Source of the DNA: Planobispora longispora
GTDB lineage: Bacteria > Actinomycetota > Actinomycetes > Streptosporangiales > Streptosporangiaceae
NCBI RefSeq assembly: GCF_016863135.1
Contig: NZ_BOOH01000015.1
Location: 1 to 64,000 of the forward strand
DNA length: 64,000 nt
Reading direction: 5' to 3'
In this document: positions 25,113 through 28,771 of the stretch, one piece after another
Numbering within the stretch: position 1 is the first letter of the stretch
Layout: each line of letters begins with the position of its first letter
The notes under the pieces: generated by a model
The model's input: only the letters and a program-made list of their open reading frames with translations
Database searches by the model: none
What the model was told of the DNA's origin: nothing
Translations under genes and position numbers: made by a program

Positions 25113-25288
25113 GCTATCTTTCGCCGAGAAGTATGCCACCTGTCCCCTCTGTCGCATATGCCTGGTCAGGGGTAACCGATGAGCGACGCCTCCGGAAAGG
25201 CCGTCCGAGCCCGGCCGAGCCCGGCCGGGAGCCGCGGCGACGCCCGGCGGCTCCGGCGCTGTGGCGCTGTGGCGCTGTGACACCCTCC

Positions 25289-25320
25289 CCGCCGGGCGGT
25301 CGCCGCGGACCGCCCGGCGG
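25289..25320. terminator. Perfect hairpin after the NlpC/P60 operon
   Basis: 13-bp perfect stem (25289-25301 with 25308-25320), six-base loop, between the stop of the coupled lysozyme-like gene (minus strand) and the cytX leader. No T-tract, so it may be a terminator or a transcription boundary. The 60 bp before it contains a GGCGCTGT repeat at about 25257-25278. Confidence 0.55.
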
Positions 25321-25348
25321 GAGGACGTGTCACCGGCTTCCCGCGGGC

Positions 25349-25756
25349 TCAGCGGATCCCGACCGGGCGGTAGGCGCGGAACTGGGTGCCCGACTCCAGG
25401 CCGTGCCGGACGACGCGGTGGTCGGTGCCGTAGCCGGCCCGCTGCTGGTAGGCCCAGTAGGAGGTACGGGCGGCATCGGCCCACCGGTCGAAGATGACCA
25501 CCATCCGGGCGGTGTTGGCGCCCACCGGGTCGATGACCAGGTCGCCTTGGAGGAGCTGGGTCATGGGGATGGGCCGGGTGTAGGTGTTTTTGGCCAGGTC
25601 CACGGTGATGGGTCCGGGTTTGGCCAGGCCCAGGGCCATGGAGGCGTAGCCGGAGCCGTCGGTGCGGTAGCCGCCGCGGGTCTTGGTCTGGCTGTAGGGC
25701 ACCCGCTGGGCGGTGGCCGGGTTCCAGCTCTTGGCCCGGGCGATCACCTGGGCACG
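25349..25756 (-). repeat. Copy 1 of the 0.4-kb dead NlpC/P60 module
   Basis: Differs from copy 2 (26368-26775) at only two places by eye (25360 and 25393) and is otherwise identical, while flanking coding sequence is unrelated. Direct repeat with copy 2. Confidence 0.93.
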
Positions 25757-26368
25757 CGTCACGCCGGGAGCGGGCCACAGCGCCGAGACGATGATCTGCC
25801 CGTCCCCCGCCTGCGGCTGGTACCGCTCGGGGTACTTGGACACCTGCACGCGCTGGCAGACGTCGCCCACCTTCGCCGATCTCCATGAGCCGCCGGGGTA
25901 CTTGCGGAGCATCTTGTCCAGGAACGCACCGGTGGCCCACGCCACGTTCAGCCGCTGGGCGGCACTGCCCCAGGTGGCGCGCTGCTGGAACACGCCCAGG
26001 CTGTCGTGGTCCACCTCCCGGTCGATGTTCCGCACGCCCGTCTCGACGATGGCCGTGGTGATCGCGATGACCGCCGCCTCCCGGGGAAGCCCCCTGGCGC
26101 GGACCGCCGCCACCACCACCCGGGCGCAGGAGACGCGATAGCCGTTCATGTAGCCGCGCAGTTTCTTCGCCAGCCGGGCGTTGAGCCGGGCCGCCAGCTC
26201 CGTGTCCTCCGCCGTCACCCCCCGGGAACCGCAGGGGGCGGTCGGCAGAGGAGCCGCGGTGGCGGCGCTCGCGGGGACGGCGGCCACCGCTGCCGCCGCG
26301 AGCAGAAGCGCCCCTGCGGTCACTCCTGCCGAGTGCGGCGAGCCGGGCCGGATCCGGGCCCGGCGCAT
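25349..26368 (-). CDS. Secreted lysozyme-like protein with inactive NlpC/P60 domain (protein A)
   Basis: 339 aa. A signal peptide (residues 1-36, cut near ASAATA) is followed by a helical domain (50-200) typical of actinobacterial lysozyme-like/transglycosylase proteins; Glu109 in AIVETGVRN is the best candidate catalytic acid, and DSLGVFQQR is the family motif. The C-terminal domain (about 203-339) is NlpC/P60-like but its catalytic Cys position is Gly (TDGSGY, Gly238) and the His position is Met (ARMVVIF). The start overlaps the stop of gene B (TGATG), so the two are coupled. The C-terminal 408 bp are 99% identical to the end of gene B. Confidence 0.82.
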   Translation of the reverse strand: MRRARIRPGSPHSAGVTAGALLLAAAAVAAVPASAATAAPLPTAPCGSRGVTAEDTELAARLNARLAKKLRGYMNGYRVSCARVVVAAVRARGLPREAAVIAITTAIVETGVRNIDREVDHDSLGVFQQRATWGSAAQRLNVAWATGAFLDKMLRKYPGGSWRSAKVGDVCQRVQVSKYPERYQPQAGDGQIIVSALWPAPGVTRAQVIARAKSWNPATAQRVPYSQTKTRGGYRTDGSGYASMALGLAKPGPITVDLAKNTYTRPIPMTQLLQGDLVIDPVGANTARMVVIFDRWADAARTSYWAYQQRAGYGTDHRVVRHGLESGTQFRAYRPVGIR

Positions 26369-27444
26369 CAGCGGATCCTGACCGGGCGGTAGGCGCGGAA
26401 CTGGGTGCCCGGCTCCAGGCCGTGCCGGACGACGCGGTGGTCGGTGCCGTAGCCGGCCCGCTGCTGGTAGGCCCAGTAGGAGGTACGGGCGGCATCGGCC
26501 CACCGGTCGAAGATGACCACCATCCGGGCGGTGTTGGCGCCCACCGGGTCGATGACCAGGTCGCCTTGGAGGAGCTGGGTCATGGGGATGGGCCGGGTGT
26601 AGGTGTTTTTGGCCAGGTCCACGGTGATGGGTCCGGGTTTGGCCAGGCCCAGGGCCATGGAGGCGTAGCCGGAGCCGTCGGTGCGGTAGCCGCCGCGGGT
26701 CTTGGTCTGGCTGTAGGGCACCCGCTGGGCGGTGGCCGGGTTCCAGCTCTTGGCCCGGGCGATCACCTGGGCACGGGTGATCGTGGGCGGCGGCACCGGC
26801 GCGTCCTCCCGGATGTTCAGCGCCCGGTAGGCCTTGTACTGGCTGTTCGCCGAGAGGCCGTAGCTGCGCGTGCGGTAGTCCGTCCCGTAACCGCCGCGCT
26901 GCTCGTAGGCCCAGTACGAGGTGCGCCCGGCGTTGGCCCACCGGTCGAAGATGACGACGTGCCGGGTGGTGTTGCTGCCGATGGCGTCGATGAGCAGGTC
27001 GCCCCTGCGGAGCTCGGACGTCTGGATGCGCCGGGTGTAGGTGCTCTTGGCCAGCCCCACCGTGATGGGGCCGGGCTTGCCCAGCCCGAGGGCCATGGAC
27101 ACGTAGCCGGAGCAGTCGGTGCGGTAGCCGCCTCGGGTCTTGGTCTGGCTGTACGGCACCCGCTTGGAGGTGCCCGGGTTCCAGGTCTTCGCCCGGGCGA
27201 TCATCTGCGAACGCGTGACCGGGGCCGCCGCGGCGGCCATGATCTCCACGCTCTCCGGCTCTCCGCTCTCCGGCCCTCCGGACGGGCTCGGCAGCGGGGT
27301 GGGGGTGGCCGCCGTGACCGGGTGCGCGGGGGCGGGAGGCGCCGCCTGCGCGGAGGCCGCCGCCACCAGTCCGCTGCCGCATGCGACCACGGTGATGAGC
27401 GCCAGGCTTCCCGTCCGGCTCCAGAGACTCTGGGTGGGGGGCAT
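26368..27444 (-). CDS. Secreted NlpC/P60 peptidase with a second, inactive copy (protein B)
   Basis: 358 aa. Signal peptide (1-35), a Pro/Ser/Thr linker, then a first NlpC/P60 domain (about 76-212) with DCSGYVSM catalytic Cys111 and TRHVVIF catalytic His162. A second domain (about 222-358) has the same fold but Gly257 and Met308 in those places. The first should cut peptidoglycan stem peptides or a related amide; the second is a likely pseudo-enzyme that may bind the same substrate. ATG 27444 has AAGGAG before it; upstream is a shared spacer with gene C. It precedes and overlaps gene A by one base. The start at 27495 was rejected because it adds non-signal-like sequence. Confidence 0.85.
   Translation of the reverse strand: MPPTQSLWSRTGSLALITVVACGSGLVAAASAQAAPPAPAHPVTAATPTPLPSPSGGPESGEPESVEIMAAAAAPVTRSQMIARAKTWNPGTSKRVPYSQTKTRGGYRTDCSGYVSMALGLGKPGPITVGLAKSTYTRRIQTSELRRGDLLIDAIGSNTTRHVVIFDRWANAGRTSYWAYEQRGGYGTDYRTRSYGLSANSQYKAYRALNIREDAPVPPPTITRAQVIARAKSWNPATAQRVPYSQTKTRGGYRTDGSGYASMALGLAKPGPITVDLAKNTYTRPIPMTQLLQGDLVIDPVGANTARMVVIFDRWADAARTSYWAYQQRAGYGTDHRVVRHGLEPGTQFRAYRPVRIR
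26379..26772 (-). repeat. Copy 2 of the 0.4-kb dead module (inverted to copy 3)
   Basis: This 394-bp stretch appears identical to the reverse complement of 28315-28708. It is a direct repeat of copy 1 and inverted relative to copy 3. Confidence 0.93.
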
Positions 27445-27618
27445 GTTCTCTCCTTGTGTCCCGTCGTGGATCGGTTCGGCTGGCCAGCGGGCCACACACT
27501 GACAGGAAATTTCCGAAACATGCCGTGAAAGCGGTGAAGTTGGGACAATATCTCCCCTTGGTGCCGACGTGACCTGTGATGACTCAGAGCCGCTGGGACA
27601 AGGTTGGGACGGATCAGC
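27445..27618. promoter_or_regulatory. Divergent spacer between genes B and C
   Basis: Holds the 10-bp palindrome GGAAATTTCC at 27505-27514 and three copies of a (T/C)TGGGAC motif near 27540, 27594 and 27604. Both genes should be transcribed from here; an operator for the HTH protein is likely in this spacer (inference). No clear -35/-10 pair was identified. Confidence 0.4.
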
Positions 27619-28755
27619 ATGGTGAATGGATCAGGGAGCACAAGCCGGAACCGGCGGCTGCGGCCGTTGCCCGACGATCTGCCGGAACCGGTCCGCGTTC
27701 TCCTGGAGGAGCTGAGGGCCCTGAAGGAACGGGCCGGACTCGACCTCCGGGCGCTGGAGCAGACGACGCACGCGAGCCGGTCGTCCTGGGGGCGATGGCT
27801 GGCCGGGGAGACGTGGATCCCCGCCGAGGCCGTGGAAGGGCTGGCCCGGCTCTGCCGTGAGGACGAGCGCCGGTTCCGCGCCCTGTGGGAAGTGGCCGAG
27901 CAGGCTCGGCGGACGGCCGCAGACGCCCCGACGGCGGACGGCGAGGAGCCGGACCCGGCCGAGATCGCGGAGCCCGATACGGGCGAGATCACGAGGAGAG
28001 TCCCGGAGCCCGGCTCGGGCGAGATCACGGAGAGGAACCCGGAGCCGGCCGGAGGCGAGTGGGAGACTCCCGTGCCGCCGGCGCCGGGGGGAGAAGCGCA
28101 CCCGCGCGGAACGGTCGCGCCGCGCGGAGCGTCGGGCCTTTCCCGATGGCGGTTCAGGGCGGGGGCGGCACTGGGCCTGTCCGCCGGGGTGGTCACCGGG
28201 GTCGTGCTCGGAGGCCCGTTCCTCGGAGGCGGGGCGAGCGGCGACGAGGAGCGGATGCCGTCTCCCGCGGGCGCCCGTGTCGAGGTGACCGCCCGCGCCG
28301 AGGAGGTCACCCGCGCCCAGGTGATCGCCCGGGCCAAGAGCTGGAACCCGGCCACCGCCCAGCGGGTGCCCTACAGCCAGACCAAGACCCGCGGCGGCTA
28401 CCGCACCGACGGCTCCGGCTACGCCTCCATGGCCCTGGGCCTGGCCAAACCCGGACCCATCACCGTGGACCTGGCCAAAAACACCTACACCCGGCCCATC
28501 CCCATGACCCAGCTCCTCCAAGGCGACCTGGTCATCGACCCGGTGGGCGCCAACACCGCCCGGATGGTGGTCATCTTCGACCGGTGGGCCGATGCCGCCC
28601 GTACCTCCTACTGGGCCTACCAGCAGCGGGCCGGCTACGGCACCGACCACCGCGTCGTCCGGCACGGCCTGGAGCCGGGCACCCAGTTCCGCGCCTACCG
28701 CCCGGTCAACGTCCGGGACGGGGGGTCAGCCCGGCCCACCTCCGCGCCGGGGTGA
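27619..28755 (+). CDS. HTH-transmembrane regulator with outside pseudo-NlpC/P60 domain (protein C)
   Basis: 378 aa from ATG 27619. Residues about 24-95 form an XRE-like helical DNA-binding domain (ERAGLDLRALEQTTHASRSS, then GRWLAGE). An acidic linker (100-170, with repeats of GEIT(E/R)) leads to one transmembrane helix (179-202). Residues 229-366 are the NlpC/P60-like module, on the outside by topology, with Gly265 and Met316 replacing Cys and His. The domain order implies an outside sensor, probably for cell-wall fragments, attached to an inside DNA-binding domain (inference). The gene is divergent from genes B and A. Confidence 0.82.
   Translation: MVNGSGSTSRNRRLRPLPDDLPEPVRVLLEELRALKERAGLDLRALEQTTHASRSSWGRWLAGETWIPAEAVEGLARLCREDERRFRALWEVAEQARRTAADAPTADGEEPDPAEIAEPDTGEITRRVPEPGSGEITERNPEPAGGEWETPVPPAPGGEAHPRGTVAPRGASGLSRWRFRAGAALGLSAGVVTGVVLGGPFLGGGASGDEERMPSPAGARVEVTARAEEVTRAQVIARAKSWNPATAQRVPYSQTKTRGGYRTDGSGYASMALGLAKPGPITVDLAKNTYTRPIPMTQLLQGDLVIDPVGANTARMVVIFDRWADAARTSYWAYQQRAGYGTDHRVVRHGLEPGTQFRAYRPVNVRDGGSARPTSAPG
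28315..28708 (+). repeat. Copy 3 of the 0.4-kb dead module
   Basis: Identical by eye to the reverse complement of 26379-26772; the first mismatch on the 5' side is at 28314 and on the 3' side at 28709. It encodes residues about 233-363 of the HTH-transmembrane protein. Confidence 0.93.
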
Positions 28756-28771
28756 TCGCGCGAGCGGTCGG

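Follow-up and report, generated by a model that had tools for sequence, protein, structure and literature searches.

A candidate one-component membrane regulator with a catalytically dead NlpC/P60 sensor, paired with a live NlpC/P60 enzyme in Planobispora longispora and related actinomycetes

A 64,000-nt stretch of the Planobispora longispora genome (contig NZ_BOOH01000015.1, positions 1 to 64,000; hereafter, the window) carries three adjacent genes, which we call A, B and C. Enzymes of the NlpC/P60 family, to which B belongs, cut the peptide stems of the cell wall. Our analysis makes it probable, although well short of certain, that B is a secreted peptidoglycan endopeptidase and that C is its dedicated regulator: a locus-specific one-component membrane protein, the sensor of which is a pseudoenzyme of the very hydrolase it controls. 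The original prediction, made from the window alone, saw in these genes wall-cutting enzymes combined with a receptor. Overall, this interpretation is partly supported: the pairing of C with B extends across genomes, while the trio is not conserved as a unit. Neither of the two outcomes that the prediction had named as refuting it, an alternative catalytic pair in the dead domains and a lack of co-occurrence of C with its neighbours, was observed.

The distribution of the pair was followed in 299 genomes of the family and a named species collection, with outgroup enzymes taken from a class-level search. We found 25 complete loci, in Planobispora, Sphaerisporangium, Actinomadura, Spirillospora and Actinoallomurus, each encoding a secreted NlpC/P60 protein with one or two such domains (B) divergently beside a protein composed of a helix-turn-helix (HTH) domain, a transmembrane (TM) segment and an NlpC/P60 module (C). 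A divergent B neighbours C in 25 of the 26 loci having a full C module. The single C without B belongs to Actinoallomurus soli (L061/L099), where a frameshift and an internal repeat have broken the HTH of C. In Actinomadura livida (L064 4678-5209 / L105 4742-5273), the 5' halves of both genes are gone together with the spacer, leaving the C-terminal module halves back to back, which looks like one deletion. Such losses are weak but fitting signs that B and C work together. C is the most widespread carrier of a dead module; the second, dead domain of B (B2) occurs in Planobispora and Sphaerisporangium only, and A has the same range minus S. rufum, the locus of which lacks it. One Planobispora genome (G001) seemed to be without the system, but this was rejected, as its contigs break off within the module to either side of where the locus should be; the locus there, as in G003, is broken by assembly.

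The module shared by the C-termini of A, B and C, already recognized in the original prediction, is indeed present in all three proteins, and the prediction that Cys111 and His162 persist in domain 1 of B, with Gly and Met replacing them in the three dead copies, was confirmed to the residue. A third position, which had gone unmentioned, is lost as well: Glu181 of the live domain corresponds to Gln in all dead copies. We count it as catalytic because RipA and RipB use a Cys-His-Glu triad (PMC12067865). Domain 1 keeps Cys-His-Glu in all 25 B proteins and is thus predicted to be an active peptidase, unlike the modules of A, B2 and C. In every complete locus (25/25), B retains all three positions while the C module has lost them all (Cys to Gly; His to Met, Ala, Glu or Gln; Glu to Gln). 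An alternative Cys-His pair, searched for at the catalytic positions of the dead domains, was not found; only Gly, Met/Ala/Glu/Gln and Gln occur there in all full dead modules. Live relatives without C, down to outgroups which we take to be Streptomyces-type genera, keep Cys and His, and Glu in all but one (L121, Gln). Several Actinomadura (L065-L069, L078) possess an extra, unpaired live enzyme of the B type without C and without enrichment of the repeats described below.

At the DNA level, the three dead copies of the window are 98-99% identical over ~405 nt. Apart from them and the live domain, with which the dead module shares 69% identity, the genome has no NlpC/P60 module of this type. 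Pfam gave a weak match to the live domain (24.4 bits, cut-off 23) and no NlpC/P60 match to any dead module, and a PDB sequence search with a dead-module profile yielded no usable match. In the AlphaFold2 model of C, confident for both the HTH and the ectodomain, the latter has the NlpC/P60 fold (Z of 12-13 to CwlO, RipA/RipB, MepS and RipD over 112-125 residues). On this model and the 69% identity to the live domain, the modules of C, A and B2 can all be assigned that fold.

The predicted intracellular part of C was assigned by Pfam to HTH_31 (33.3 bits, cut-off 27), and in the model it matches HTHs of the Xre type, lambda-repressor-like and HigA-like folds. In each of the 24 C proteins that were examined, a single main hydrophobic stretch is flanked on its N-terminal side by positive residues; therefore, the HTH should lie inside the cell and the dead module outside. 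At E<1e-30, this HTH subfamily was found in 20 of the 299 family genomes, always joined to a dead module and always in the loci described here. Across an alignment of ten species, the recognition segment of this HTH, ASRSSWGRWL, does not vary. The nearest relatives outside the system (L151, L156; E ~1e-16 to 1e-20) share the HTH-TM-ectodomain layout but have no NlpC/P60; their ectodomain is presumably DUF2690-like.

A regulator specific to this locus would need a conserved, repeated motif nearby, and the spacer between B and C offers a candidate. The spacers contain 44 GGGACA copies on the C strand versus 3.8 expected (maximum 11), an enrichment of ~12-fold. A direct-repeat pair, GGGACA/GGGACG, with members 62-64 bp apart is present in every one of the 26 spacers (which include two from one species), as opposed to 0.76 when segments are drawn at random from these loci, and further copies stand 8 or 11 bp away from members of the pair. 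Five genomes have the composite motif, each a single time and always in this spacer, while its reversed control gave 0. Upstream of enzymes of the same type without C, GGGACA is found at 0.71/kb, compared with 4.84/kb in B-C spacers. The locus-specific repeats and the invariant recognition segment, taken together, point to DNA binding by the HTH of C. A palindrome, GGAAATTTCC, was considered as the operator and dropped for the GGGACA repeats, being intact in two loci only. Most loci also contain a second conserved box, TGACCTGC, between two GGGACA groups, ~26-34 bp after the first GGGACA (~27570-27580 of the window), and many Actinomadura spacers (e.g., L049) have a palindrome, GTCGATCGAC, upstream of B that does not occur in Planobispora.

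Such evidence allows us to sketch how the system might work. The external domain of C would be a duplicated, dead copy from the enzyme family of B with its fold kept, holding without cutting it the wall structure or muropeptide on which B acts, or the product of B. Ligand occupancy would alter the state of the TM segment and HTH and, hence, the grip of C on the GGGACA direct repeats between B and C, which are spaced 53 and 62-64 bp and have neighbours at 8 or 11 bp. Occupancy of the repeats would then set how strongly B and C are expressed, along with A in loci that have it. For Planobispora and Sphaerisporangium, we suppose that B and the muramidase A each received a further copy of the dead module, which probably serves them in binding the wall. 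That a dead NlpC/P60 can bind peptidoglycan has a precedent in the report on RipD (PMC12067865).

Several points weigh against this scheme. The residue at the former His position varies among dead modules, i.e., the groove is not frozen. The last repeat adjoins the start codon of C in Planobispora and Sphaerisporangium and lies far upstream of it in Actinomadura, so the promoter geometry is not uniform. Spacer conservation partly reflects shared descent, and the GGGACA repeats could bind another regulator. Finally, the HTH of C also matches that of RodZ (2wus, Z 9.2), a membrane protein that acts together with MreB and has, besides its HTH, one TM segment and an external domain. This resemblance brings up a different explanation, in which the dead modules are wall-targeting domains only and C is a RodZ-type scaffold or anchor that positions B at the site of growth or division, its HTH being non-regulatory. 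It would agree with A and B bearing the dead module where a wall-binding domain might sit, as fungal GH184 proteins carry an SH3-like one (PMC10394673), and with RipD, a dead NlpC/P60 protein that is reported to bind peptidoglycan and has no known role as a regulator (PMC12067865). Yet, every locus has the conserved direct repeats in its B-C spacer, specific to this site, and these point to DNA binding, as does the invariant recognition segment in a domain that Pfam places in HTH_31. We consider this explanation rather unlikely.

It might also be supposed that C senses the enzyme B itself through pairing of dead and live domains, acting either as an enzyme-level thermostat or as an inhibitor that works on secreted B from the membrane. 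The sensor is a paralogue of the enzyme, and pseudoenzymes often bind their active relatives. However, the Planobispora dead module is also fused to the muramidase A, which suits wall binding better, and such enzyme sensing appears to us quite improbable.

As for the origin of the dead modules, all 35 of them fall on one side of a single branch (support 86/91), requiring 1 change on the tree versus 26.8 in shuffles. Most simply, a single loss of catalysis preceded the split between the Actinomadura and Planobispora lineages; this old origin spans two NCBI families. Three independent losses of activity in the window were rejected, given the ~99% identity of the copies and the single clade; with three copies 98-99% identical, one change must therefore have been copied twice within this genome. 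Between close species, the ratio of nonsynonymous to synonymous divergence (dN/dS) of the dead modules is 0.11-0.39, which indicates purifying selection. Synonymous divergence (dS) in Planobispora is 0.01-0.05 among copies within a genome and ~0.35 for the same gene between species, and in Sphaerisporangium TRM90804 a perfect 120-nt tract is common to B2 and C while the flanking parts differ. Both patterns are the work of gene conversion, which keeps the dead copies alike. The dead module of Planobispora A was probably overwritten in this way, because Sphaerisporangium A retains a distinct one. We also considered whether the identical copies could be an artefact of short-read assembly; the contigs of two other Planobispora species break at the module, which itself requires near-identical copies.

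Since conversion is clearly active and the copies are nearly identical, one might regard the dead modules as neutral, decaying duplicates, homogenized by chance and functionless, and the losses in A. livida (both N-terminal halves) and Actinoallomurus soli (B and an intact HTH) would be in keeping with it. The low dN/dS, the single old origin, the open frames intact in 25 loci and the invariant DGSG and QQR residues of the dead modules largely refute this possibility, which we find hardly credible.

The domain of A described as lysozyme-like in the original prediction is joined to a dead module, as proposed, but its identity needs correction: it is a homologue of GH184 muramidases, with an N-terminal domain matching 8b2h at E=6.6e-11 (phmmer). 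Glu109 and Asp120 of A stand opposite the catalytic Glu125 and the supporting Asp150 of 8b2h, respectively, and both are kept in all four A proteins. A model of A, built from a shallow alignment, was of low confidence (predicted local distance difference test, pLDDT, of 46) and was not used. GH184 is a newly defined family, in which bacterial members are said to be without the SH3-like wall-binding domain of fungal ones (PMC10394673). By analogy, the dead NlpC/P60 of A might sit where such a domain could be. It is then tempting to suppose that the receptor C and the secreted A and B carry interchangeable dead binding domains, held identical by gene conversion, and compete for the same wall sites, with many free sites switching the operon on and enzyme-shielded sites switching it off; this extension is attractive but doubtful.

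Among known systems, the closest in logic appears to be the bla divergon, although it is built from different parts. In the BlaR1/BlaI-BlaZ systems of staphylococci (bla and mec divergons), the external sensor of the receptor is related to class D beta-lactamases (PMC9834060). Like BlaR1, C is a membrane receptor encoded in a divergon with the enzyme it appears to control and has an enzyme-related sensor. In contrast, the BlaR1 sensor is acylated by its ligand and a metalloprotease domain acts on a separate repressor, whereas C, consisting of the HTH, TM segment and dead NlpC/P60 only, carries its own DNA-binding domain, has no protease and has lost all catalytic residues of its sensor, which sets it apart from the BlaR1 type. 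Mycobacterial RipD (Rv1566c) shares with C the NlpC/P60 fold (Z 12.2) and the replacement of Cys and His, but it keeps Glu, is ~20% identical over the domain and has been described with neither an HTH nor a paired enzyme gene. Other actinobacterial HTH-TM-ectodomain proteins have the same layout, but they lack NlpC/P60 and their HTH is distant. In ToxR and CadC, a DNA-binding domain, one TM segment and an external sensor are united in one chain, as in C, but the DNA-binding domain is a winged helix and the sensor domains are unrelated. Dead or binding domains are also reused to control wall or polysaccharide hydrolases in EnvC/NlpD, which are degenerate LytM factors, and in RsgI anti-sigma factors with carbohydrate-binding or hydrolase-like domains; these differ from C in that they activate an enzyme directly or work via a sigma factor, and in their folds. 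On these comparisons, we would place the system with one-component membrane regulators having an enzyme-derived sensor. The original prediction knew of no described system of this form, and in open full texts, the scope of our search (subscription papers lay outside it), no description of the HTH plus NlpC/P60 layout was found.

Overall, this looks like an unreported way for soil actinomycetes to read their own wall and control their wall-cutters, and it bears on the open question of how hydrolase amounts are adjusted to the condition of the wall in Gram-positive bacteria. A receptor apparently made from a dead copy of its hydrolase is present in at least 5 genera with a compact, locus-unique operator candidate, and for the two-gene system both the class of ligand and the site can be predicted, with a reporter ready to hand. 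After RipD, it would be the second example of a dead NlpC/P60 module that probably binds the wall. The route from enzyme to pseudoenzyme sensor may be general and can be searched for in other HTH-TM proteins.

The features of the window are collected in Table 1. B has an apparent signal sequence at its N-terminus, and its stop codon overlaps the start of A (TGATG), both genes being on the minus strand and C divergent from B. B and A likely form one operon, the hairpin 3' of A being its probable end.

Table 1. Features of the A-B-C locus in the Planobispora longispora window.
Feature	Position	Strand	Remarks
Gene A	25349..26368	-	339 aa; signal peptide, GH184-like muramidase domain (~residues 74-190), C-terminal dead NlpC/P60 (Gly238, Met289)
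Gene B	26368..27444	-	358 aa; secreted; domain 1 live (Cys111-His162-Glu181), domain 2 (B2) dead (Gly257, Met308, Gln327)
Gene C	27619..28755	+	378 aa; predicted cytoplasmic HTH_31, linker, one TM helix (residues ~184-202), predicted external dead NlpC/P60 (Gly265, Met316, Gln335)
Live NlpC/P60 module of B	26809..27219	-	
Dead module of B (domain 2)	26371..26781	-	
Dead module of A	25352..25762	-	
Dead module of C (ectodomain, putative sensor)	28306..28716	+	
Operator-like repeat 1, GGGACA	27542..27547	+	
Operator-like repeat 2, GGGACA	27595..27600	+	53 bp after repeat 1
Operator-like repeat 3, GGGACG	27606..27611	+	64 bp after repeat 1, 11 bp after repeat 2; near C start codon
Strong hairpin without T-run, downstream of A	25281..25345	-	RNA fold -44.5 kcal/mol
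Whole A-B-C unit	25179..28771	.	Absent at the same site in three sister species, flanks joined or nearly so

In the three sister Planobispora species that lack the unit at this site, the locus, or what contig breaks leave of its ends, is flanked by other genes, and therefore the three genes moved together. No transposase was seen near the moved unit. The site used in the sisters is occupied in the genome of the window (G000:C21:115548-120105, L128) by unrelated genes, including a regulator of the cyclic nucleotide monophosphate (cNMP)-binding type. The outer parts of the unit, i.e., the dead modules of A and C, form 402-nt inverted repeats.

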